Virus record (IMG/VR): IMGVR_UViG_3300040801_003456
Span: 1-22,405 of that record
Length of the DNA stretch: 22,405 nt
Direction: 5' to 3' (one strand)
Source of the DNA: a virus
Below are positions 5,431-21,728 of this stretch, piece by piece. The position numbers were made by a program, and so were the translations under genes. Every line of letters begins with the position of its first letter. The stretch's first letter is position 1. Below the pieces are notes generated by a model. That model was not told the origin of the DNA. It saw only the letters and a list, made by a program, of their open reading frames with translations, and ran no database searches.

Positions 5431-5448
5431 GGAGGGCTTATGCCCTCC
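5431..5448 (-). promoter_or_regulatory. Leader hairpin before the ParB-methyltransferase gene
   Basis: GGAGGGC at 5431-5437 pairs with GCCCTCC at 5442-5448 around TTAT. It lies immediately upstream of the GGAGG ribosome site and is the same hairpin-then-ribosome-site arrangement as in the 15.8-20.7 kb leaders. Confidence 0.5.
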
Positions 5449-6079: not shown

Positions 6080-6727
6080 CTAAATGTTGAGTTCGGTTGT
6101 GAAGTGTTTTTGCTCGAGCTTTTTTCGAGCTGCGATTGCGTCATCTTTATTATAGAAGACTCCTCCGTGTATGGTTTTGCCGTGAACGGTTATGGAGGCC
6201 ATCCACTTATTGAGTGAGCGGTTCCAGTAAACCCCTTTTACCCCAGAGGTATTGTTACGATTTAAGTTTTTTCGGTTGCGCTGATTCTCCACTTGGCTGA
6301 CTTCGCGTAAATTGAGGATCGAGTTATTAGCCCTGTCCCCGTCTATATGATCTATGATACCCGTAGGCCATACACCATAATACAGACACCAAGCTAGCAC
6401 ATGAGCCAGATAAGGCGTTCGCTGATAGTTGATTATTAAATAACCATCTGGCCTTACGCAACCTGGCAATCTATCTCTAGATACGCCAGGCCTAATCTCG
6501 ATTCGAGAAATCTCCCCATCATTAGTAATGCTAAAAGCACTAGCTATCTGCTCTGGCGTGTGGTAATACTTCCTCGACGTGAGCTTCGGGGTCGAGCTTG
6601 TCTCGGTATTCGAGGAGGGCGTGGCGGAAGCCCAGGCTAGCGTTAGATCGTCCGATTCGCTCAGCGTATTTGATGAGCGAGGGCTCGACGGTGATTGTGA
6701 TTCTGGATTTGCGTTCAGGCTGGTCAT
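6080..6727 (-). CDS. HNH homing endonuclease with AP2-like C-terminus, start unclear
   Basis: Homing endonucleases cut alleles lacking them and spread by repair. The recognisable part begins about residue 56 (HTPEQIASAFSITNDGEI). It continues with the HNH core (LAHVLAWCLYYGVWPTGI, IDHIDGDRANNSILNLREVS, VENQRNRKNLNRNN) and an AP2-like DNA-binding segment (SGVKGVYWNRSLNKWMASI, then GGVFYNKDDAIAARKKLEQK). The first 55 residues (Ser/Pro/Thr-rich) are simply the +1 reading of the overlapping small gene 6540-6737, and no ATG, GTG or TTG occurs between that part and the domain. Either translation starts at the internal ATG 6727, it arises by frameshift from the small gene, or the endonuclease inserted and lost its start. 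Its homologous neighbour at 8372 starts just before the matching segment. Confidence 0.82.
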   Translation of the reverse strand: MTSLNANPESQSPSSPRSSNTLSESDDLTLAWASATPSSNTETSSTPKLTSRKYYHTPEQIASAFSITNDGEISRIEIRPGVSRDRLPGCVRPDGYLIINYQRTPYLAHVLAWCLYYGVWPTGIIDHIDGDRANNSILNLREVSQVENQRNRKNLNRNNTSGVKGVYWNRSLNKWMASITVHGKTIHGGVFYNKDDAIAARKKLEQKHFTTELNI

Positions 6728-6737
6728 TGGTGTTCAT
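6540..6737 (-). CDS. Small ribbon-helix-helix-like DNA-binding protein (possibly truncated)
   Basis: A 65-aa basic protein with RKSRITITVEPSLIKYAERI followed by GRSNASLGFRHALLEYRDKL. A short beta strand (RITITVEPSL) and two helices around an SNASLGFRHAL turn match the ribbon-helix-helix plan, so it is a likely small regulator. It has the best promoter of the window: TTGACA and TATAAT with 16 nt between (6764-6791), about 25 nt before the ATG at 6737. The ribosome site is weak. Its last 63 codons are read in another frame by the HNH gene, so its C-terminus (about from VEEVLPH) may be altered by an endonuclease insertion. Autoregulation of its own promoter would be typical, but no operator is proven. 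Confidence 0.65.
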   Translation of the reverse strand: MNTNDQPERKSRITITVEPSLIKYAERIGRSNASLGFRHALLEYRDKLDPEAHVEEVLPHARADS

Positions 6738-6840: not shown

Positions 6841-6872
6841 TTACAAATGATCCAGGATCATTCGTACTTACG
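6841..6872. repeat. Dispersed palindrome, copy 1
   Basis: Core AATGATCCAGGATCATT with partly degenerate outer arms (TTAC left, CGTAC right). It directly abuts and includes the stop codon of the Sak4-like gene and precedes the promoter at 6764-6791. See the other copies at 14182, 17214, 19413 and 19762. Confidence 0.85.
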
Positions 6873-12047: not shown

Positions 12048-12066
12048 GGACAGGCAAAGCCTGTCC
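12048..12066 (-). promoter_or_regulatory. Leader hairpin before the 209-aa gene
   Basis: GGACAGGC (12048-12055) pairs with GCCTGTCC (12059-12066) around AAA. It is the hairpin-upstream-of-start pattern again; there is no U-tract. Confidence 0.45.
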
Positions 12067-13934: not shown

Positions 13935-14123
13935 CTACTTGTTGCCTTTAGTGTCTTGTTCGGCCTGGATCTTCCGGTAGACTTCCTCGCGGTGGACCGG
14001 AAGGGAACGGGGCGCGGTAATGCCGAGACGGGTAGCGTTGGGCCGCTCGGATGGAAGGATAGTGATTTTGATGTCGTCGCCTATGATGATAGACTCGTTG
14101 GCGCGGCGGGATAGGATTAGCAT
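13935..14123 (-). CDS. csrA: CsrA/RsmA-family RNA-binding regulator
   Basis: A 62-aa protein that fits CsrA over its whole length: MLILSRRANESIIIGDDIKI, then VHREEVYRKIQAEQ. Key features are the N-terminal MLIL.RR, the glycine-aspartate of IIIGDDI, and the VHREEVY motif with the conserved arginine (R44 in E. coli CsrA) used to grip GGA RNA. The middle (PSERPNATRLGITAPRSLP) is a little variable. CsrA dimers bind ANGGA sites, often over a ribosome site, and block or stabilise the mRNA. Its mRNA has a GAGAG site and a hairpin near 14139-14171, and a 31-bp palindrome copy lies 60-100 nt upstream. Targets could be host genes, or the phage leaders with CGAACGGAGACC. Confidence 0.93.
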   Translation of the reverse strand: MLILSRRANESIIIGDDIKITILPSERPNATRLGITAPRSLPVHREEVYRKIQAEQDTKGNK

Positions 14124-14181: not shown

Positions 14182-14228
14182 GGGAATTGGCTGTACAAAT
14201 GATCTAGGATCATTTGTACATACGATTA
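14182..14228. repeat. Dispersed palindrome, copy 2
   Basis: Core at 14192-14220, arms TGTACAAATGATC and GATCATTTGTACA around TAG. The outer flanks GGGAATTGGC and TACGATTAC extend the symmetry. It includes the stop codon of the 74-aa gene and lies upstream of csrA. Confidence 0.9.
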
Positions 14229-15429: not shown

Positions 15430-15813
15430 TTACTCGTCTTCGTCGATAGATGACGAAAACTCTTCTTTTACCTCGTCCAGGATTTCCTGCTCCAGGGGAC
15501 AGGTGGTGGAGAAGGAAAAGAGCCGGTGAAGGGGAAGGTTTTCGAAGGCGATGCGGACAGCTTTTTGGCGCTCTTCGATCTCGTAGTCGAGGGCTTCCCA
15601 GGCGGATTTCCATGCGGCGTGGGCAGCGCGGTAGATGTGCGAGGGCATCTCGTCATCGGGTTCCTGGTAGGCCAGGGTGGCTTTCTCGTCCTCGAGTTCG
15701 GACAGGGATTTGTCTGCAAGGGACTCGATGTAAGAATCGGTGGGGGATTCCTCTGGTCCGTTGATCCAGGACTGTTCCCAGGATTCCTGGGCGCGGGAGA
15801 AGGAAGATTTCAT
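15430..15813 (-). CDS. Hypothetical acidic protein, 127 aa
   Basis: Strongly acidic and helical: SRAQESWEQSWINGPEESPT, KSLSELEDEKATLAYQEPDD, then AAHAAWKSAWEALDYEIEER, and it ends in a run of Asp/Glu/Ser (EEFSSSIDEDE). The helical repeats of W and A at regular spacing suggest a coiled coil. Acidic proteins of this type in phages may mimic DNA, but nothing proves that here. It has a conserved-type leader: hairpin 15835-15862 followed by GAACGGAGACC. Confidence 0.75.
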   Translation of the reverse strand: MKSSFSRAQESWEQSWINGPEESPTDSYIESLADKSLSELEDEKATLAYQEPDDEMPSHIYRAAHAAWKSAWEALDYEIEERQKAVRIAFENLPLHRLFSFSTTCPLEQEILDEVKEEFSSSIDEDE

Positions 15814-15819
15814 TGGGAA

Positions 15820-15862
15820 GGTCTCCGTTCAGGGGGAGGAGTAGCGCTTGCGCTACTCCTCC
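15820..15862 (-). promoter_or_regulatory. Leader: hairpin plus GAACGGAGACC ribosome site
   Basis: Perfect stem of 13 bp (GGAGGAGTAGCGC at 15835-15847 with its complement at 15850-15862), loop TT, followed at 15820-15830 (minus) by GAACGGAGACC, the ribosome site 6-8 nt before the ATG. The ANGGA core matches the CsrA recognition sequence. Confidence 0.75.
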
Positions 15863-15905
15863 TCGGGTTTAACGTCCTGTTCCTTTTCAACCGCGTCCAG
15901 GCGGG

Positions 15906-15929
15906 ATAGGTCGGGCAAGCCCGACCTAT
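15906..15929. other. Perfect 11-bp intergenic hairpin
   Basis: ATAGGTCGGGC (15906-15916) and its complement (15919-15929), loop AA, lying downstream of the 145-aa gene. It has no U-tract, so it is more likely a processing or stability stem than a terminator. Confidence 0.5.
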
Positions 15930-15940
15930 TTCGATGGCCC

Positions 15941-16378
15941 TTAGGTGTTACATGCGAGGTAGGTGCGGGTGGACGTTTCGTGCTGGAGCTTGCCAAGCGC
16001 GAGCAAGGTCTCTTTGTCCGACGCGGGGAAGTCGAAGTAGGCGTTTATGGATAAGTGGATCTTTACTTCGTCTGTGGTTAGGAGGTAAGATGTATAATGG
16101 ATAGTATATCCATCATTGTCGCAGTCGGTTGCGGAGAACGCTATGCTTTGTGTCGATGGTACTTCTACGGTCCGGGTTTCGGAATCGTAGAAGTAGGAGG
16201 AGAGATAAATGGTGCAAAGATTCTCCGCAAAGTACACGTTTGCGCTGCAATCGGGGTGGAGGGATAAAATCCGGTTTACCTCAGGGTCAAGGGATACCAG
16301 GAACTCGGCCTCGGTGCGAAGCTTTTTAGCGTGGAGTTCTTCGAGGGAGGAGAGGGAAGATTTGGTCAGGTTGTTCAT
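15941..16378 (-). CDS. Hypothetical protein, 145 aa
   Basis: Not recognised. The N-terminal 40 residues are helical and charged (SLEELHAKKLRTEAEFLVSL), followed by a strand-rich part (NVYFAENLCTIYLSSYFYDS, DNDGYTIHYTSYLLTTDEVK, IHLSINAYFDFPASD) and a short helix ETLLALGKLQHETS. It may be a small beta-sheet domain. It has its own sigma70 promoter (16435-16463) and a conserved-type hairpin leader ending CCGAACGGAGACC. Confidence 0.75.
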   Translation of the reverse strand: MNNLTKSSLSSLEELHAKKLRTEAEFLVSLDPEVNRILSLHPDCSANVYFAENLCTIYLSSYFYDSETRTVEVPSTQSIAFSATDCDNDGYTIHYTSYLLTTDEVKIHLSINAYFDFPASDKETLLALGKLQHETSTRTYLACNT

Positions 16379-16385
16379 GCGGGAT

Positions 16386-16429
16386 GGTCTCCGTTCGGGG
16401 TTGAAGGTCGGCGCGAAGCGCGACCGACC
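16386..16429 (-). promoter_or_regulatory. Leader: hairpin plus CCGAACGGAGACC ribosome site
   Basis: Stem GGTCGG-CGCG / CGCG-CCGACC at 16406-16429 with one bulged base, then CCGAACGGAGACC on the minus strand (16386-16398), 7 nt before the ATG. Confidence 0.8.
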
Positions 16430-16434
16430 GGGAT

Positions 16435-16463
16435 ATTATGGCATATTGGCAATGGCTTGTCAA
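16435..16463 (-). promoter_or_regulatory. Sigma70 promoter for the 145-aa gene
   Basis: Minus strand TTGACA (16458-16463), 17-nt spacer, CATAAT (16435-16440). Transcription would begin close to the leader hairpin, giving a short structured 5' untranslated region. Confidence 0.75.
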
Positions 16464-16495
16464 TGCCCTACAGGAAATAGTCTGAGGGTGTTTAT

Positions 16496-16765
16496 TTAAT
16501 CTCCGAATACCACAAGGGCAGATTCGGGGATAAAGGTTTGGGGTGGTTGGGCTAGATACTGGGGTGGGGTTAGGTTACGAACAGATGGGTCGAGGTGTTC
16601 TTTCCCGGCAGCCTTTATGCGGCGGGCCAGCTCACGGTCGAGAGCCAAATACTCGTACTTAAGGATCTCGGCGCGGGTCCAGGCGATGGAGTCGATGCGG
16701 CCGAGGTGGCGGCATAGGGTTGATTGCTGGAGGGCGGAAAGGTTATGGATGTTTTGCTCGAACAT
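16496..16765 (-). CDS. Hypothetical protein, 89 aa
   Basis: Starts MFEQNIHNLSALQQSTLCRH and is helical: RIDSIAWTRAEILKYEYLAL, DRELARRIKAAGKEHLD, with a proline-rich tail (PPQYLAQPPQTFIPES). Not recognised. Leader ribosome site CCGAAAGGAAACC is a variant of the conserved one. Confidence 0.72.
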   Translation of the reverse strand: MFEQNIHNLSALQQSTLCRHLGRIDSIAWTRAEILKYEYLALDRELARRIKAAGKEHLDPSVRNLTPPQYLAQPPQTFIPESALVVFGD

Positions 16766-16769
16766 GGGT

Positions 16770-16817
16770 GGTTTCCTTTCGGATTGGGGTTATGCGCTAT
16801 GATGATTGTCATAGCGC
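16770..16817 (-). promoter_or_regulatory. Leader: hairpin plus CCGAAAGGAAACC ribosome site
   Basis: GCGCTATGA (16794-16802) pairs perfectly with TCATAGCGC (16809-16817) around TGATTG. The following ribosome site is CCGAAAGGAAACC (16770-16782, minus), a variant of the motif with AAGGA in place of ACGGA. Confidence 0.7.
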
Positions 16818-16837
16818 CTCGCTTCGCTCGCTCTTAG
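16816..16837. repeat. Repeat GCGCCTCGCTTCGCTCGCTC, first copy
   Basis: The same 20-plus base word occurs at 17160-17181. Both copies lie in leader or intergenic DNA next to small genes. Purpose unknown. Confidence 0.6.
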
Positions 16838-17115
16838 GGTTTGGAGTTTAGCACTGCACCGATGCTAAATGGGTGGTGCATTGGCTCGTCGGGGACTTCC
16901 TGTAGGGTGTATTGCTGGCCCCGGCCGGGACCAAGAAAGATCTGGAACAGCTCGGCGCACGCGGGGCAGAAATTTCCCCAGGTGCCGGAGCGGGTTGCTG
17001 CGTCGTAGAAGACCTCTTGTATGGAACCCTGGCACAAATCGCAGTGGGTTGGTGGGTGGAGGTGGGCTTTGCCTGGGGTGGAGCCACCTGCGGTTTGGAT
17101 GTACTTTTTGGGCAT
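16834..17115 (-). CDS. Small zinc-ribbon-like protein, 93 aa
   Basis: Two CxxC pairs: HCDLCQGSIQEVFYDAATRS then GTWGNFCPACAELF, spaced about 24 residues apart, a typical zinc-ribbon arrangement, with a basic N-terminus (MPKKYIQTAGGSTPGKAHLH). It resembles transcription- or replication-associated zinc proteins, but no family is certain. The start at 17115 has AGGAA 6 nt upstream. A longer reading to 17241 uses codons inside the palindrome copy 3 and is not real. Confidence 0.75.
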   Translation of the reverse strand: MPKKYIQTAGGSTPGKAHLHPPTHCDLCQGSIQEVFYDAATRSGTWGNFCPACAELFQIFLGPGRGQQYTLQEVPDEPMHHPFSIGAVLNSKP

Positions 17116-17159
17116 GGGAGTTCCTGTGAGAGGTGATAAGGCTATGGGTTTCTTCCCAG

Positions 17160-17181
17160 CGCCTCGCTTCGCTCGCTCTTG
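17160..17181. repeat. Repeat GCGCCTCGCTTCGCTCGCTC, second copy
   Basis: Duplicate of the word at 16816-16837, here in the leader region of the zinc-ribbon gene. Confidence 0.6.
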
Positions 17182-17213
17182 GGTGGGTGGTGGTGTAGGT
17201 AAGGGTATGGCGG

Positions 17214-17245
17214 AATGATCTAGGATCATTTGTGCATACAATTAC
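17214..17245. repeat. Dispersed palindrome, copy 3
   Basis: Core AATGATCTAGGATCATT at 17214-17230, right flank TGTGCATACAATTACC, left flank diverged. It lies between the 94-aa and zinc-ribbon genes. Confidence 0.85.
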
Positions 17246-17314
17246 CTGCAGGGGTTTCGCGGGTGCTGGGCCGAAAGGTCCGGCCCGGCGCTGGGTTGGG
17301 TTATTGCGGTTTGG

Positions 17315-17599
17315 CTATCGGCCCCAGTAGGAATGGTTGGTGTAGTTGGTTTCCAAATAGTTCAGGGCTTTTGCGTTGTCGGGATCTTTTAGCGCCGAGG
17401 AGTAGGTGGTGCGGATCTCGGCCCAGGATTGGCCACTGGCCAAGCACAGGCCAATGGTGTTTACCCAGTTCAAGACCCATTTCTCGGGGTCTGGGATGAT
17501 GGATAACTGGGCGCAGATGCGCTCGTCGATTGTGATTAGGCCTTGGCCGGAAAAGACTTTTCCGGTGGACTTTTCTTTGAGGGCGAGGTATGCGGCCAT
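17315..17599 (-). CDS. Hypothetical protein, 94 aa
   Basis: Not recognised. Begins MAAYLALKEKSTGKVFSGQG and contains LITIDERICAQLSIIPDPEK, WVLNWVNTIGLCLASGQSWA and EIRTTYSSALKDPDNAKAL, a helical protein with a conserved-looking ASGQSWAEI turn. It is preceded by hairpin 17616-17642 and the CCGAACGGAGACC ribosome site, so it belongs to the shared-leader set. Confidence 0.75.
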   Translation of the reverse strand: MAAYLALKEKSTGKVFSGQGLITIDERICAQLSIIPDPEKWVLNWVNTIGLCLASGQSWAEIRTTYSSALKDPDNAKALNYLETNYTNHSYWGR

Positions 17600-17602
17600 G
17601 TT

Positions 17603-17642
17603 GGTCTCCGTTCGGAAAGGTCAGGTCGAAGACCTGACCTTT
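17603..17642 (-). promoter_or_regulatory. Leader: 12-bp hairpin plus CCGAACGGAGACC ribosome site
   Basis: AAAGGTCAGGTC (17616-17627) pairs perfectly with GACCTGACCTTT (17631-17642) around a 3-nt loop. The motif CCGAACGGAGACC on the minus strand (17603-17615) follows, with ATG 3 nt later (AACATG). Confidence 0.85.
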
Positions 17643-17648
17643 GGGGTT

Positions 17649-17882
17649 TTAGATCAGGTTAGCTTCGATCAGGTCTTGCTCGATTTGAACGGCCGCGGCC
17701 CAGTTGGGGTCATTTGCAGCCAGTTCTTCGATGGCATCTTGTAGGGTCATGGACAGCTCTATGGCGGAGTTGCTGTTGTTGCAGCTGTGTTGAAATTTTC
17801 GGGCCTCTAGCAGGTGTTGAAGTGCCCAGCCGGTGTGTAGGCGAGCGACGTTGGCGGACTTGGACTCAGGAGCTTGACTCAT
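17649..17882 (-). CDS. Hypothetical protein, 77 aa
   Basis: Begins MSQAPESKSANVARLHTGWA and is helical (LQHLLEARKFQHSCNNSNSA, LSMTLQDAIEELAANDPNW, AAAVQIEQDLIEANL). Not recognised. The leader is CCGAACGGAGACCAACATG, identical to that of the 94-aa gene, which marks them as co-regulated or duplicated control units. Confidence 0.75.
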   Translation of the reverse strand: MSQAPESKSANVARLHTGWALQHLLEARKFQHSCNNSNSAIELSMTLQDAIEELAANDPNWAAAVQIEQDLIEANLI

Positions 17883-17885
17883 GTT

Positions 17886-17973
17886 GGTCTCCGTTCGGGT
17901 TGAGGGGGTGCCACGTCTTGTGGCCTCGTCAGGGATGGTCCTTATCCGACGGAGGAACGTGGGATGTTCCTCC
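17886..17973 (-). promoter_or_regulatory. Leader with two hairpins plus CCGAACGGAGACC ribosome site
   Basis: Motif at 17886-17898 (minus). Hairpin 1: GCCAC/GTGGC at 17910-17924. Hairpin 2: GGAGGAAC (17951-17958) with GTTCCTCC (17966-17973). Confidence 0.75.
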
Positions 17974-17985
17974 CGTTTCGTTGCC

Positions 17986-18165
17986 CTATTTAATTGAGTC
18001 TTTTAGTTCTTTTAGGTTTCCGATGATAACGAAGTAATCTTCTAATTCATCCTCGGGTGCATAGTTTAATGCAGCACCTTCTAGGAGATTTATGGCCTGG
18101 GTCAGAATCCGCTCGGTGGATAAGGACAGGTCAACGGAACCTTTATGGATAATGGGCTGTAACAT
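17986..18165 (-). CDS. Small hypothetical protein, 59 aa
   Basis: Starts MLQPIIHKGSVDLSLSTERI and continues LTQAINLLEGAALNYAPEDE, then LEDYFVIIGNLKELKDSI. Acidic and helical. ATG 18165 is chosen because TTGAGG lies 6 nt upstream; the upstream TTG reading has no site. It overlaps nothing but starts within 10 nt of the previous stop, so it is coupled to the 96-aa gene. No family is recognised. Confidence 0.65.
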   Translation of the reverse strand: MLQPIIHKGSVDLSLSTERILTQAINLLEGAALNYAPEDELEDYFVIIGNLKELKDSIK

Positions 18166-18173
18166 GGTGGGCC

Positions 18174-18464
18174 TCAAAGAGAATGGATGCTCGGGCCATG
18201 CAGCCCGATGGGTGGGAATTGACCCAGCATGTGCTCTGGTTTGTAGGTGGCGGTTTCGAACACCTGTGCACGATACCGCTCACGTGCCAGGCCTGCGGGC
18301 GGGATTGCTGCCCAGCCGCGGGCGGGCTGACGGATTGGAGGTGTCTTTAGTTCGCGGAAAGGTGTTTTGGTTTTGGGCGCTTTAGCCTTTGACCCTTTGG
18401 TCTTTGGCTTGTCTATTAAAAGGTCATCTAATCCTGATAAATCTAGGTCGTCGATGCTTGACAT
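18174..18464 (-). CDS. Hypothetical protein, 96 aa
   Basis: Begins MSSIDDLDLSGLDDLLIDKP (acidic, repeated DLD/LDDLL), then a lysine/proline-rich part (KTKGSKAKAPKTKTPFRELK), and ends RYRAQVFETATYKPEHMLGQ followed by a proline/glycine segment. It looks partly disordered. It is the first gene after the promoter at 18540-18568 and carries the conserved leader with an 11-bp hairpin. Function unknown. Confidence 0.75.
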   Translation of the reverse strand: MSSIDDLDLSGLDDLLIDKPKTKGSKAKAPKTKTPFRELKTPPIRQPARGWAAIPPAGLARERYRAQVFETATYKPEHMLGQFPPIGLHGPSIHSL

Positions 18465-18467
18465 TAT

Positions 18468-18513
18468 GGTCTCCGTTCGGTTGATGGTAAGGTTATGCCG
18501 AAGGCATAACCTT
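18468..18513 (-). promoter_or_regulatory. Leader: 11-bp hairpin plus CCGAACGGAGACC ribosome site
   Basis: AAGGTTATGCC (18489-18499) pairs perfectly with GGCATAACCTT (18503-18513), 3-nt loop; motif at 18468-18480 (minus). It follows the promoter at 18540-18568 directly. Confidence 0.85.
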
Positions 18514-18539
18514 TGGGCGGGCGCGGTGTCCCAGGTATG

Positions 18540-18568
18540 AGTATGGTCGTAATATGGTCGGTTGTCAA
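18540..18568 (-). promoter_or_regulatory. Sigma70 promoter for the 96-aa gene
   Basis: Minus strand TTGACA (18563-18568), 17-nt spacer, CATACT (18540-18545). TATGGTCG occurs twice as a direct repeat within and beside the spacer, possibly a regulator site. Confidence 0.65.
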
Positions 18569-18619
18569 CGGGGCGCGGGTCCGTTGGGCGGGCGTGGTTG
18601 GGTGTCCCGTTGGATGATC

Positions 18620-18661
18620 CGCGTGCGCGTGCGCGTACACGTGCGCGTACACGCGCACGCG
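18620..18661. repeat. 42-nt alternating purine-pyrimidine tract
   Basis: Uninterrupted alternation of CG, TG and AC/GT steps, built on CGCGTACACGTGCGCG words. Such sequence favours Z-DNA and forms self-complementary stretches. Confidence 0.85.
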
Positions 18662-18746
18662 GGTGGTTTTGATGGTTGTGGGGCGGCCTGGGAGAACCGT
18701 GGCGGCGTTTCCGGTCGGCGGGCGGCGGGACCGTACCGGGTGCCCG

Positions 18747-18771
18747 TCAAAACGGCCCACGGACGTTTTGA
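18747..18771. repeat. Inverted repeat, 8-bp arms
   Basis: TCAAAACG (18747-18754) and CGTTTTGA (18764-18771) around a 9-nt loop, at the GC-rich end of the gene-free region. Confidence 0.6.
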
Positions 18772-18777
18772 ATGGCC

Positions 18778-18810
18778 AGCTGACCGCGAGCTGACCGCGA
18801 GCTGACCGCC
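18778..18810. repeat. Three tandem 11-mers AGCTGACCGCG
   Basis: Three head-to-tail copies (18778, 18789, 18800; the last differs at its final base). It could be a protein-binding array. Confidence 0.85.
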
Positions 18811-18820
18811 AGCCCGCAAT

Positions 18821-18831
18821 GCTGCCAATGT
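18821..18831. repeat. Inverted iteron-like copy GCTGCCAATGT
   Basis: Exact reverse complement of ACATTGGCAGC found at 19081-19144, followed by a G-rich tract (ttttttgggggg). Confidence 0.6.
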
Positions 18832-18858
18832 AGGTTTTTTGGGGGGAATCTCGGGGGT

Positions 18859-18893
18859 TGAAACGTATGTACGTTTCAGCCCGAAGGGCTGAA
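18859..18893. repeat. Two adjacent palindromes
   Basis: TGAAACGTA-TG-TACGTTTCA at 18859-18878, and TTCAGCCC-GAA-GGGCTGAA at 18875-18893. Overlapping stems could switch between forms. Confidence 0.7.
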
Positions 18894-18930
18894 GGGAATA
18901 GGCTAAGGGGAATATATTTACAAATGCCTG

Positions 18931-18976
18931 ATAATAGAAGATAACGTAGGCTGGAAGCCGAGTTATCTTCTATTAT
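18931..18976. repeat. 15-bp inverted repeat with inner stem, next to poly-T
   Basis: ATAATAGAAGATAAC (18931-18945) and its exact complement (18962-18976) surround an inner GGCT-GGA-AGCC stem. A run of eleven T follows at about 18984-18994 on plus, so it could also end rightward transcripts or act as an AT-rich unwinding element. Confidence 0.8.
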
Positions 18977-19080
18977 AAAATAATTTTTTTTTTTAAGATA
19001 GGGAATCGTATTGCTTAAATTACCTAGGGCAATTTTGGAGGGAAACGTACTGGCGTTTGACCCACTTTCCCGAAGGTGGG

Positions 19081-19144
19081 ACATTGGCAGCTTTGGCAGC
19101 AGGGGGGGTTTACATTGGAAGCAGGGGGGCTTTACATTGGCAGC
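19081..19144. repeat. Iteron-like G-rich repeats ACATTGGCAGC
   Basis: ACATTGGCAGC at 19081-19091, partial TTTGGCAGC at 19092-19100, ACATTGGAAGC at 19112-19122 and ACATTGGCAGC at 19134-19144, with runs of six to seven G between them that could form a quadruplex. Confidence 0.75.
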
Positions 19145-19235
19145 GGTCGTAAGTCATTGATTTTTAAGGAAAAATAGCGTCAATATGTCGTAGAAGCTGT
19201 GAGTTTTTGGGTATCTATCACGGTTTTTGTGCAGT

Positions 19236-19255
19236 GTAATTGTATGTACAAATCC
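19236..19255. repeat. Half-site of the dispersed palindrome
   Basis: GTAATTGTATGTACAAATCC matches the outer flank and left arm of the palindrome family, but the right arm is missing. Confidence 0.6.
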
Positions 19256-19342
19256 CGTAATTGTAACGAAAGTGTATCAGAGGTGGGTTTTTCGTGGAGA
19301 AATCGCTGTTTTTCATGGAGAAAAAACGGGATTTTCCTTGAG

Positions 19343-19378
19343 AAAAACGGGATTTTGCTTCAGGAAAATCCCGTTTTT
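19343..19378. terminator. Bidirectional terminator-like stem with A/T tracts
   Basis: AAAAACGGGATTTT (19343-19356) and its exact complement (19365-19378), loop GCTTCAGG. A tract on one side and T tract on the other would give a U-tail either way. The left arm is also repeated directly at 19322-19335. Confidence 0.55.
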
Positions 19379-19412
19379 GTTGGAGAAATGGGGGATTTTT
19401 GGAGGTAATTGG

Positions 19413-19443
19413 ATGTACAAATGATCCAGGATCATTTGTACAT
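19413..19443. repeat. Dispersed palindrome, copy 4 (perfect, 31 bp)
   Basis: Arms of 15 bp (ATGTACAAATGATCC and its exact complement) with a single central A. This is the best copy. The outer flanks GGTAATTGG and ACGGTTC are less symmetric. Confidence 0.9.
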
Positions 19444-19493
19444 ACGGTTCGGCTGTACCAATTTGGAGTGTTTCAACTGGCCTTTTCCCCATG

Positions 19494-19513
19494 TTTGCAT
19501 GTTATCATGCAAA
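19494..19513. repeat. Palindrome TTTGCATG-TTAT-CATGCAAA
   Basis: A perfect 8-bp inverted repeat with 4-nt centre, operator-like, between the two A/T stems. Confidence 0.6.
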
Positions 19514-19559
19514 TATGCTGGCAGGATAATTGTCGAAAAGCTTTTGGGTTTCCGGTGGG

Positions 19560-19592
19560 AAATGGGAAATTTCTGAAGGAAATTTCCCATTT
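19560..19592. terminator. Second terminator-like stem with A/T flanks
   Basis: AAATGGGAAATTT (19560-19572) and its exact complement (19580-19592), loop CTGAAGG. Same plan as the stem at 19343-19378; the loop word CTGAAGG recurs right afterwards. Confidence 0.5.
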
Positions 19593-19761
19593 TCTGAAGG
19601 AAATTTGGGGATTTCTGCGAGAAGTTTGGCGCAGAAATTATGATTATTTTTCAAATCATCATACCGTTGATTTTATTGGGATTTTTCTAAATGGGACACC
19701 TGTGGGAGGAAAGAGGCTGTTGCCTCTTTCCCAGGCCTCGTTTGTTTCTCCAGATAATCGG

Positions 19762-19792
19762 ATGGACAAATGATCCAGGATCATTTGTACAT
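19762..19792. repeat. Dispersed palindrome, copy 5
   Basis: Arms of 15 bp with one mismatch (GG instead of GT in the left arm), otherwise like copy 4; the left flank GATAATCG keeps the family pattern. Confidence 0.9.
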
Positions 19793-19860
19793 ACCATTTC
19801 CTGTGGGGTTTTCTCGTGGTCCTGTGGTGGGAAAGAAGGCTACCGCCATTTTTTAGGCAC

Positions 19861-19893
19861 AAAAAAAACCCGGCAGGTTAAACCTGCCGGGTT
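19861..19893 (-). terminator. Strong rho-independent terminator
   Basis: Minus strand: 13-bp perfect stem (AACCCGGCAGGTT and its complement around one base), followed by eight T. It closes the leftward unit of the two genes at 19898-20636. Confidence 0.92.
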
Positions 19894-19897
19894 CTAT

Positions 19898-20101
19898 CTA
19901 TCCCCTCGGGTAGTCTTTATTCACTGTGACCGAGGTCACGAAGCTCTGTTGGCTCTTATAGGGCCAGTCTCCCGCTTGCCAGATCTGTCTCCAAGTGCAG
20001 CCTCTATCTCTGGCGGCTTTGATCGCAACCAGCTCCTCCTTGGTCACGCCGGCTCTTGATCCTTCGGGTTTTAACCCGTTTAGTTTGTCCACGTTGGACA
20101 T
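19898..20101 (-). CDS. Hypothetical protein, 67 aa
   Basis: Starts MSNVDKLNGLKPEGSRAGVT, then KEELVAIKAARDRGCTWRQI and WQAGDWPYKSQQSFVTSVTV. The middle (TKEELVAIKAARDRGCTWRQI) looks like a helix-turn-helix (resolvase-type or small regulator), so it may be a DNA-binding protein; this is inference. The ATG at 20101 is chosen because of the conserved leader CCGAAAGGAGACC; a longer reading has no site. It ends just before the terminator at 19861-19893. Confidence 0.75.
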   Translation of the reverse strand: MSNVDKLNGLKPEGSRAGVTKEELVAIKAARDRGCTWRQIWQAGDWPYKSQQSFVTSVTVNKDYPRG

Positions 20102-20105
20102 TTCA

Positions 20106-20140
20106 GGTCTCCTTTCGGCCAGGGGGCTTGCGCCCCTGGC
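20106..20140 (-). promoter_or_regulatory. Leader: hairpin plus CCGAAAGGAGACC ribosome site
   Basis: GCCAGGGG (20118-20125) pairs with CCCCTGGC (20133-20140); the motif follows at 20106-20118 (minus) with AAGGA as the core. Confidence 0.75.
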
Positions 20141-20147
20141 TTGTTGG

Positions 20148-20636
20148 TTATAGGTCCAGATCACCCAGGCTTGGTTTCGTCACTTTGCCTGCCGTCCGAT
20201 ACTCCTTTAGCTTGGTCTTATACAGGTCACTTGCGACCAAGTGGGCCTTAACCTTCTCGACCATGCCTGCATCGAAGTCCTTTCCTTGGGCTTTGGCCAG
20301 CTCCTTGGTAATCCGTTCTAGGTGATCTTCTAGGCTTTCGCCTTTGAGCCTCTTCGCCTTCGCACTCAGACAATCCCTTAGTGCTTTGTCCTCTGGCGTT
20401 AGGCTTGATCCCCTTCCGCCACCTGCCGGGATCTTACCGGCCTTGATCTCCTCGGCCGTTTTAACCCGTTCAGCTTCCCGCTTTTCTTCCGTCTCGTCCT
20501 TCATGTTGGCGGTACACCTTTGCACTTTCACCCGTGCCGCCTGCTCTATCATGTGCTGCACGAACTCCGTGCTCCACTTCTCCGGGTCGATCTGCACGCC
20601 GTTCAGTTCAAACGTCTTTAGGGTATGAGTCGCCAT
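20148..20636 (-). CDS. Hypothetical protein, 162 aa
   Basis: Not recognised. Starts MATHTLKTFELNGVQIDPEK and continues WSTEFVQHMIEQAARVKVQR, then NMKDETEEKREAERVKTAEE, a charged helix, GKIPAGGGRGSSLTPEDKAL, and EDHLERITKELAKAQGKDFD near the end. Highly charged and helical with a Gly/Ser hinge at about 75; it could be a nucleic-acid-associated or scaffold-like early protein. I chose ATG 20636 with GGAGG in its leader; the reading up to 20756 passes through the hairpin and is unlikely. First gene of the leftward unit. Confidence 0.78.
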   Translation of the reverse strand: MATHTLKTFELNGVQIDPEKWSTEFVQHMIEQAARVKVQRCTANMKDETEEKREAERVKTAEEIKAGKIPAGGGRGSSLTPEDKALRDCLSAKAKRLKGESLEDHLERITKELAKAQGKDFDAGMVEKVKAHLVASDLYKTKLKEYRTAGKVTKPSLGDLDL

Positions 20637-20639
20637 AAT

Positions 20640-20685
20640 GGCCTCCGTTGAGAACCATTGGCTACCCAGCGCACCCGCGCTGGGT
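20640..20685 (-). promoter_or_regulatory. Leader: 9-bp hairpin plus CAACGGAGGCC ribosome site
   Basis: ACCCAGCGC (20664-20672) pairs with GCGCTGGGT (20677-20685); the motif at 20640-20650 is a relative of CGAACGGAGACC. Confidence 0.7.
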
Positions 20686-20770
20686 GCCGACTGGTTCAGA
20701 TTATTAAAGAACGCGGGCTGGTCCCGTCGGGGGCCGGCCCGGTGGGCCGGTAACACCGGACCACAGCCAC

Positions 20771-20799
20771 AAGATAGACGGTCTACAAAGGGGTGTCAA
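20771..20799 (-). promoter_or_regulatory. Sigma70 promoter with palindromic operator
   Basis: Minus strand TTGACA (20794-20799), 17-nt spacer, TATCTT (20771-20776). TAGAC-G-GTCTA (20774-20784) overlaps the -10 and spacer as a perfect 11-bp palindrome, likely a repressor site. It starts the leftward unit at the divergence point. Confidence 0.75.
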
Positions 20800-20829
20800 G
20801 TAACCGTATGGCAACGGGCAAGACCCTAG

Positions 20830-21200
20830 ACCTCGGCACCCAGGGAACCGTTACAATATAACATCAGCCCATTGAGCCGCACGAAGAGCAAAAAGTATGC
20901 CAACCTCCGCTCCTTCTCGGTCCTTCGCTTGCGGCAGCTCCTCCACGCGAGCCTCTTCCCCTTCGCCTGGCCGACCCCCCACCCTTCGTCATGTGTAGTG
21001 GTAATATACTATTGACCTACACGGATATACTAACCTAGTTTTCAAAACATAGCAATACGATTGCCTACAGCCGTGCCAAGGGCCGCCCATTCGGGCCACC
21101 CATTCGTGCCAAGGCACGAATGGGACAGGTAATCGAAGGGCCGTTTCCCACCACTCCTATTAGAAGGAACCGCGCCGGGCGGCGCGAATGGGCTTGCGCT
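20830..21200. other. Divergence region with no gene, CCCATTCG repeats
   Basis: About 370 bp between leftward and rightward modules. No supported ORF. It has a pyrimidine-rich stretch (about 20903-20995), a perfect 12-bp hairpin CCCATTCGTGCC-AA-GGCACGAATGGG (21099-21124), a stem GCGCC-GGGC-GGCGC near 21175 and four CCCATTCG/CGAATGGG words (about 21086-21191). No convincing promoter of the TTGACA type faces right. Confidence 0.5.
21099..21124. repeat. Perfect 12-bp hairpin at the divergence point
   Basis: CCCATTCGTGCC and its exact complement around AA; no U-tract on either side. Confidence 0.75.
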
Positions 21201-21222
21201 GGGGCGCGGGATGGAGTATACT
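21194..21222 (+). promoter_or_regulatory. Weak candidate promoter for the rightward module
   Basis: TTGCGC (21194-21199), 17-nt spacer, TATACT (21217-21222). The ATG at 21229 would lie at the start of the transcript. Only the -10 is good. Confidence 0.35.
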
Positions 21223-21228
21223 AGAAAC

Positions 21229-21393
21229 ATGAATACTCGAACCCCTCCACCAACCCCGCAGCGGGAAAGGCTGTTGATGCAGAACCGCCGTGCCCCGGCG
21301 CTGGCAGCGATTCGAGAGCGGCTGAGTAAAAATGATCCTGTTTTGAAATCTTCCCCTTTTACACGAGAGCGATTAGCGCAGAGTAACACTTAA
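21229..21393 (+). CDS. Small basic hypothetical protein, 54 aa, first rightward gene
   Basis: MNTRTPPPTPQRERLLMQNR then RAPALAAIRERLSKNDPVLK, a basic protein with a proline-rich start and one helix. Not recognised. The ATG at 21211 (six codons longer) is the alternative start; neither has a strong ribosome site. The stop overlaps the next ATG (TAATG), so translation is coupled to the 111-aa gene. Sequence and strand place it in the structural side of the genome. Confidence 0.6.
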   Translation: MNTRTPPPTPQRERLLMQNRRAPALAAIRERLSKNDPVLKSSPFTRERLAQSNT

Positions 21394-21728
21394 TGAGCGT
21401 GCTTACCGTTAAACGAGGGGATACTTGGGTCTGGCCTTTCACCTATAAAGACGAGGCCGGGACGCCAATCGACCTATCGGGCAGCTCGGTGCGCCTGCAC
21501 ATGAAGGCGAAGCGCGCCACGACCCCTGCAGTTTCCGCGAGCACGGCAACGGGAGAGATCACCCTCACGCCACTCGATGGTGTGGCGACGGTGCGCATCG
21601 AGCCCGAGATCACGGAAATAGTTGCTCCGGCCAAGTACGACGCCGACATCGAGGTCACCTGGGCCGACGGGACGGTGCAGAGTTCGGCGACCTTTATTGT
21701 CGATGTGAAGGAGGACATTACGGTATGA
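21393..21728 (+). CDS. Small beta-sandwich-like protein, possible baseplate/tail accessory (BppU-N-like)
   Basis: 111 aa, strand-rich: VKRGDTWVWPFTYKDEAGTP, IDLSGSSVRLHMKAKRAT, then GEITLTPLDGVATVRIEPEI and YDADIEVTWADGTVQSSATF. The RGDTW..pFt..d..G.piDLsG..v.....k start is the pattern of the BppU N-terminal-like domain used in phage tail and baseplate proteins. No enzymatic motif. Coupled to genes on both sides (TAATG before, ATGA after). The function is therefore likely virion attachment or assembly, with moderate certainty. Confidence 0.7.
   Translation: MSVLTVKRGDTWVWPFTYKDEAGTPIDLSGSSVRLHMKAKRATTPAVSASTATGEITLTPLDGVATVRIEPEITEIVAPAKYDADIEVTWADGTVQSSATFIVDVKEDITV

Follow-up and report, generated by a model that had tools for sequence, protein, structure and literature searches.

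A repeated hairpin and ribosome-site leader before small minus-strand genes of an uncultured phage

The IMG/VR record IMGVR_UViG_3300040801_003456 is a linear fragment of an uncultured phage, and the window analysed here is the entire record, with a length of 22,405 bases. The minus strand carries the replication-type genes and a series of small genes; the structural-type genes start at about 21,200 and are on the plus strand. The subject of this analysis is a leader cassette, in which a short hairpin is followed by the ribosome-site element GAACGGAGACC or a close variant of it. The element lies before eight minus-strand genes, with starts at 20636, 20101, 18464, 17882, 17599, 16765, 16378 and 15813. 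The features of the eight cassettes are the following:

20652–20697, minus strand: hairpin before g163, 9-base-pair (bp) perfect core, 18 bp in total with internal loops
20640–20650, minus strand: ribosome-site element, variant CAACGGAGGCC
20148–20636, minus strand: gene g163, 162 amino acids (aa)
20118–20140, minus strand: hairpin before g68b, 8 bp, 7 nucleotides (nt) past the g163 stop
20106–20116, minus strand: ribosome-site element, variant GAAAGGAGACC
19898–20101, minus strand: gene g68b, 67 aa
18489–18513, minus strand: hairpin before g96b, 11 bp, related to the g94 hairpin
18468–18478, minus strand: ribosome-site element GAACGGAGACC of g96b
18174–18464, minus strand: gene g96b, 96 aa
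17910–17924, minus strand: second hairpin of the g59–g77 gap, 5 bp, before g77
17886–17896, minus strand: ribosome-site element GAACGGAGACC of g77
17649–17882, minus strand: gene g77, 77 aa
17616–17642, minus strand: hairpin before g94, 12 bp, 6 nt past the g77 stop
17603–17613, minus strand: ribosome-site element GAACGGAGACC of g94
17315–17599, minus strand: gene g94, 94 aa
16794–16817, minus strand: hairpin before g89, 9 bp
16770–16780, minus strand: ribosome-site element, variant GAAAGGAAACC, of g89
16496–16765, minus strand: gene g89, 89 aa
16406–16429, minus strand: hairpin before g145, 6+4 bp with one bulged base
16386–16396, minus strand: ribosome-site element GAACGGAGACC of g145
15941–16378, minus strand: gene g145, 145 aa
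15835–15862, minus strand: second hairpin of the g145–g127 gap, 12 bp, before g127
15820–15830, minus strand: ribosome-site element GAACGGAGACC of g127
15430–15813, minus strand: gene g127, 127 aa

The element is exact in five of the eight cassettes and is a variant in the other three; all copies are on the coding strand, with the ATG 3–8 nt downstream. Searched as a 13-mer with up to three mismatches, it gives 19 matches, a number reached by no shuffle (7.8 ± 2.6 in shuffles). In six of the eight cassettes GGAG is followed by ACC, which is the case for only 3 of 579 GGAG-type starts from other phage loci not selected for the element. Also, GAAC in place of GAAA lowers the pairing to the 16S tail. 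Because of this excess of ACC and the weakened 16S pairing, the element appears to be kept beyond the needs of translation: it exceeds an ordinary ribosome site, as was remarked for the start-associated sequence (SAS) of cluster K mycobacteriophages (PMC3203893). Recent duplication of the cassettes could be an added source of its conservation.

The conservation of bases without rRNA pairing also bears on an explanation in which a translational regulator binds the leader; this could be the CsrA of the phage itself, with the ANGGA in the ribosome site as its target. CsrA is encoded in the window at 13935–14123 (Pfam PF02599, E 1.5e-21), and the ACGGA or AAGGA of the element fits the ANGGA core which is generally known for this protein. 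ANGGA is, however, frequent in ribosome sites. High-affinity CsrA sites carry GGA in loops, whereas the cassette hairpins contain no ANGGA and their loops no GGA; CsrA dimers use two sites, whereas the leaders of g94, g89 and g145 have a single GGA per 90 nt. The stems and loops of the cassettes share no sequence to which another protein could bind, and we regard this explanation as very unlikely.

Concerning the hairpins, the sequence-only reading of this DNA had described near-perfect stems of 8 to 13 bp directly upstream of the same ribosome site in all eight cases. The element is indeed present at all eight sites and the hairpins exceed chance, but the stems are less uniform: six of the eight contain a perfect run of 8–12 bp, the g163 stem is interrupted around its core, the g145 stem is bulged and the g77 stem has only 5 bp (shuffle p 0.18). 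Of the 35 gene leaders measured, each taken as 65 nt, seven contain a perfect stem of 8 bp or more, compared with a mean of 0.16 (maximum 2) in dinucleotide shuffles; six of these seven leaders are cassettes. Such stems occur at 1.9% of random minus-strand positions. The distance from the 3′ end of the hairpin to the element, in the order of gene starts from 20636 to 15813, is 1, 1, 10, 13, 2, 13, 9 and 4 nt, and the g68b hairpin lies 16 nt ahead of its start codon. The stems are GC-rich, with energies of −8 to −32 kcal/mol, and their base pairs, 84 over the eight hairpins, comprise 56 G-C, 28 A-U and no G-U pairs. No Rfam family matches the window at gathering score. The cassette is real, not a product of chance, and its pairing is kept.

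Further leader hairpins had been reported at four other positions. Those at 5431 (7 bp, p 0.04) and 12048 (8 bp, p < 0.01) stand out from shuffled sequence, whereas those at 2289 (6 bp, p 0.06) and 14139 (interrupted stem) are indistinguishable from chance by the perfect-stem measure. The first two are not followed by the element:

12048–12066, minus strand: leader hairpin without element, before g209, 8 bp
5431–5448, minus strand: leader hairpin without element, before the ParB-methyltransferase gene

The stem sequences differ between genes, as had been noted, but some seem to be derived from each other. The hairpins of g96b (18489–18513) and g94 (17616–17642) share a CCCA flank and are identical at 19 of 25 bases. 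The six bases that differ make up three pairs, each altered on both sides (T-A/C-G, T-A/G-C and C-G/T-A), so that 3 of 11 pairs are double-changed and none is changed on one side only; when the arms are slid against each other, pair counting finds no double change at any slide. By a simple count, full compensation by chance, given three changes per arm, is expected once in 4455. By eye, the hairpin at 15906–15929 is similar to the g94 stem apart from two additional double changes; an automatic alignment of four hairpins yielded no usable columns and did not recover this likeness, which is only suggestive. A second relation is found in the leaders of g89 and g93, where an identical 21-nt stretch, GAGCGAGCGAAGCGAGGCGCT, is present at the foot of both hairpins (16813–16833 and 17158–17178), whereas the stems beyond it differ:

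17139–17164, minus strand: diverged cassette-like hairpin before g93, flank in common with the g89 leader

The earlier proposal of selection for structure over sequence is therefore supported inside this genome, with three double changes, no one-sided change and 84 pairs free of G-U. The same observations are relevant to an alternative in which the hairpins are DNA palindromes that owe their maintenance to recombination or templated repair (quasi-palindrome correction) and not to selection on RNA, the cassette being chiefly a seam for gene shuffling. Stems without G-U are as such a process would leave them, templated correction would also yield paired changes, and the flank common to g89 and g93 agrees with it. 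The position of the hairpins is, however, fixed relative to minus-strand stops and starts, and random positions of that strand seldom have them. Together with the breakpoints in two other phages described below, which fall on both sides of the question, this makes the alternative quite unlikely in our view.

The placement of the hairpins was examined in relation to the neighbouring genes, promoters and terminators:

19865–19895, minus strand: intrinsic terminator after g68b, ordinary, with a T-run which the cassettes do not have
18540–18568, minus strand: sigma-70-like promoter, TTGACA-17-CATACT
17951–17973, minus strand: first hairpin of the g59–g77 gap, 8 bp, 12 nt past the g59 stop
16435–16463, minus strand: sigma-70-like promoter, TTGACA-17-CATAAT with TG, expected first transcribed base at about 16428
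15906–15929, minus strand: first hairpin of the g145–g127 gap, 10 bp, 11 nt past the g145 stop

Among the small genes, a gap's first hairpin starts 6–16 nt past the stop codon of the preceding gene. A single hairpin is present in gaps of 44, 49 and 68 nt, where it lies both behind the stop and ahead of the ribosome site; two are present in gaps of 103 and 127 nt, one in each of these positions. The exception is the 117-nt gap before g145, with a promoter and a single hairpin close to the ribosome site. With one hairpin in short gaps and two in longer ones, the arrangement suggests that the hairpins perform two tasks, the first at the 3′ end of the preceding message and the second ahead of the ribosome site that follows. 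Of the promoters in the region, the best (16463–16435) lies in the g145 gap, and its transcript would begin at the first bases of the g145 hairpin. This is as expected for a 5′ protective hairpin, although it would be one case of eight; promoter-like hexamers are found upstream of only three of the eight cassettes (g145, g96b and g163), outside the repeat.

A position 6–16 nt past stop codons and GC-rich stems of −8 to −32 kcal/mol are also typical of terminators. The hairpins could accordingly be partial terminators or attenuators after each gene, with read-through giving a gradient of expression and the next ribosome site simply following. A real terminator of this kind is present after g68b, and the stem-loops of T4-type phages are called promoter-terminator motifs in a title cited in PMC4503421. 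The cassette hairpins, however, are not intrinsic terminators, because they have no T-tract (0 to 2 T in the following 8 nt). The terminator scan of the coding strand lists none of them, and the start codon is only about 16–28 nt downstream of the hairpin. Partial termination is therefore judged unlikely. The hairpin after g245 is likewise an ordinary terminator with a T-run.

Processing by RNase III was one of the roles proposed at first. In the T7 early region the RNase III sites, like the stabilising hairpin at the 5′ end of ompA, place hairpins at message ends beside ribosome sites. The cassettes are likewise intercistronic hairpins of an early operon, which could be processed between the genes as in T7, and the g163 stem is longer than the others, with internal loops. 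The stems of the window are shorter than the T7 sites, and because most of them have 5–12 bp, which by general knowledge is short for RNase III, processing comes out as the least likely of the roles first proposed, and as highly unlikely overall. Among those roles, protection of transcript ends would fit best with where the hairpins lie.

The reading which we tentatively favour, while placing it somewhat below an even chance, is that the cassette is a modular leader at gene interfaces, serving as a shield of mRNA ends and as an insulator of translation starts. It would act in the mRNA of the early minus-strand operon, with the order: previous stop, 6–16 nt, short Watson–Crick hairpin, short C/A-rich linker, GAACGGAGACC, 3–8 nt, ATG. 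The hairpin would protect two ends against nucleases, the 3′ end of the message upstream and the 5′ end of the one downstream. It would also set the ribosome site apart from the upstream sequence, giving each small gene a standard strong start next to any neighbour; protection and insulation are both what we infer from these features. Because only pairing would matter, the stems could drift through paired changes while the ribosome element stays, and because the same element precedes many genes, it could double as a recombination seam for the gain and loss of small genes.

Several points weigh against this reading. The cassettes are absent from the relatives found, and the stem of g77 is poor. 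Compensation rests on one clear pair of hairpins, for which the two-sequence shuffle control is powerless (64 of 500 shuffles reach the value) and only the sliding of arms is useful. In folding, the gain in openness of the ribosome site from the hairpin is slight and non-significant (a fraction of 0.07–0.60 of shuffles are at least as open), and deletion of the hairpin does no harm. Insulation by the hairpin is thus weakly supported by the folding models.

The window DNA and its ATPase have no match in INPHARED, and a search of genomes gave no relatives of the ATPase; other searches gave 13 loci with the ATPase at 55–74% identity. The small genes are not found in the relatives, apart from weak matches of g90 in G002 (47%), where g90 has no cassette, and of g96b in L139 (32%). 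IMG/VR has no relatives of g163 or g145, and g163 has no Pfam match. The exact element GAACGGAGACC is absent from the two closest relatives. Looking at the leader of the ParB-methyltransferase gene, in a gap shared with G001, the window has GGAGGGCATAAGCCCTCC and G001 a 9-bp stem of other sequence; in G002 an 18-bp stem is found right after the same upstream gene, by position in the ParB-methyltransferase gap and near the contig end. Four other relatives have one nearly identical hairpin in the g198 leader, and most orthologous gaps are without a hairpin.

Searches with the element, alone or with the linker, match many unrelated contigs in IMG/VR. Among the matches listed, hairpins of at least 8 bp precede about 6% of the elements, compared with 2–3% of other ribosome sites, which is a small difference. 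A scan of the genome contigs for linker plus element gives 19 scattered loci. GAACGGAGACC is reused before several genes, mostly without hairpins, in two other phages, G004 (74% GC) and L018 (3062–5047); in L018 it stands behind a repeated promoter-like sequence, TAGACTAAC.

When 383 sequences were scanned for repeated ribosome sites with hairpins, the only comparable case was the pair L192 and L196 (in G017 and G018, respectively), which are about 97% identical over most of their alignment and unrelated to the window phage. They reuse GAGAGGAT before about a dozen genes, and several copies come after two hairpins, first a strong one whose stem varies and then a short one such as GATGCGATCCTGCATC:

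G017rc 17640–20775: double-hairpin leaders with GAGAGGAT
G018 18500–21460: double-hairpin leaders with GAGAGGAT

L196 (9149–9395) has an extra gene of about 65–70 codons between two copies of the ribosome site, whereas L192 (9375–9395) has a single cassette ahead of the following gene. Both ends of the extra gene lie in the repeated ribosome-site sequence, and a second place differs in gene content, beside hairpins. This shows the role of a seam in L192 and L196; for the window the same role may be proposed by analogy with this unrelated pair. That gene gain or loss ends in the repeated ribosome site agrees with the DNA-palindrome alternative considered above, but the breakpoint is within the ribosome site and not in the palindrome. 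It is possible, though doubtful, that unrelated phages independently built the same cassette, both to standardise the expression of small accessory genes and as a seam for their gain and loss. Such a cassette, with a freely drifting hairpin and a fixed ribosome element between stop and start, would be defined by structure and position and not by sequence, and homology searches would miss it. Also, a two-state RNA switch is possible in L192 and L196: the left arm of the second hairpin is able to pair with the flank that precedes the first one (ATCATCG, GTGTAGCG), and the loop of this second hairpin (GATCCT) could base-pair with the ribosome site.

Several other features of the window are not part of the cassettes. 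Between the early and late units, positions 18,514–19,890 form a long, mostly non-coding stretch with no convincing gene and many strong palindromes, a possible origin or control region. A 27-bp palindrome, GTACAAATGATCCNGGATCATTTGTAC, has four copies (6841–6867, 14193–14219, 19415–19441 and 19764–19790; 0 expected) and a further degenerate copy near 17217–17245; these are probably operators of a phage regulator. A Tad2-like protein is encoded at 1989–2261 (Pfam, E 4e-26), likely a Thoeris anti-defence gene, and at 6080–6737 a ribbon-helix-helix-like open reading frame runs into an HNH-like one, which, judged by the translations, looks like a homing-endonuclease insertion. The UvrD-like helicase shares about 30% identity with its counterparts in Bradyrhizobium, Sphingomonas and Pseudomonas phages. 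The names ThyX, ligase, ParB-methyltransferase, Cas4-like and ATPase are putative, as read from the translations.

Among known systems, the cassette is nearest to the SAS and extended SAS (ESAS) of cluster K and to the promoter early stem-loops (PeSLs) of T4-type phages, yet it fails the defining features of both. The cluster K SAS is a short repeat 3–9 bp from the start codon of many non-structural genes, with GGAG, conserved bases without rRNA pairing and large intergenic gaps, and about half of the copies are preceded by an inverted repeat (PMC3203893, PMC11373665). The window likewise has an asymmetric repeat with a Shine–Dalgarno core, in one orientation, at eight minus-strand sites 3–8 nt before the ATG, but its element is GAACGGAGACC and not the 13-bp SAS consensus GGGATAGGAGCCC. 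The ESAS are 17-bp inverted repeats with a shared consensus, departures from which do not support RNA pairing, and with SigA-like promoters inside; the stems of the window have no common consensus, their pairing is kept and most cassettes are without a promoter. The PeSLs, as far as the titles cited in PMC4503421 and general knowledge indicate, are small cassettes of a sigma-70 promoter and a terminator stem-loop between non-essential early genes, where they mediate gene shuffling; here a hairpin without a T-tract is joined to a ribosome site, and an early promoter lies upstream of only g145, g96b and g163. The 17-bp dyad repeats of cluster O mycobacteriophages (PMC4351075) are likewise many short palindromes across a phage genome, but their arms are invariant and they have no link to ribosome sites.

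Small accessory genes of unknown function abound in phage genomes. A leader that can be reused ahead of any gene would account for the way in which they are inserted and still expressed, and it gives a sequence-independent sign by which accessory regions can be located. The function of the cluster K SAS was described as unknown in 2011 and again in 2024; stems which are paired but free in sequence separate a role in RNA from a role in DNA binding, which makes the RNA role testable with reporters.

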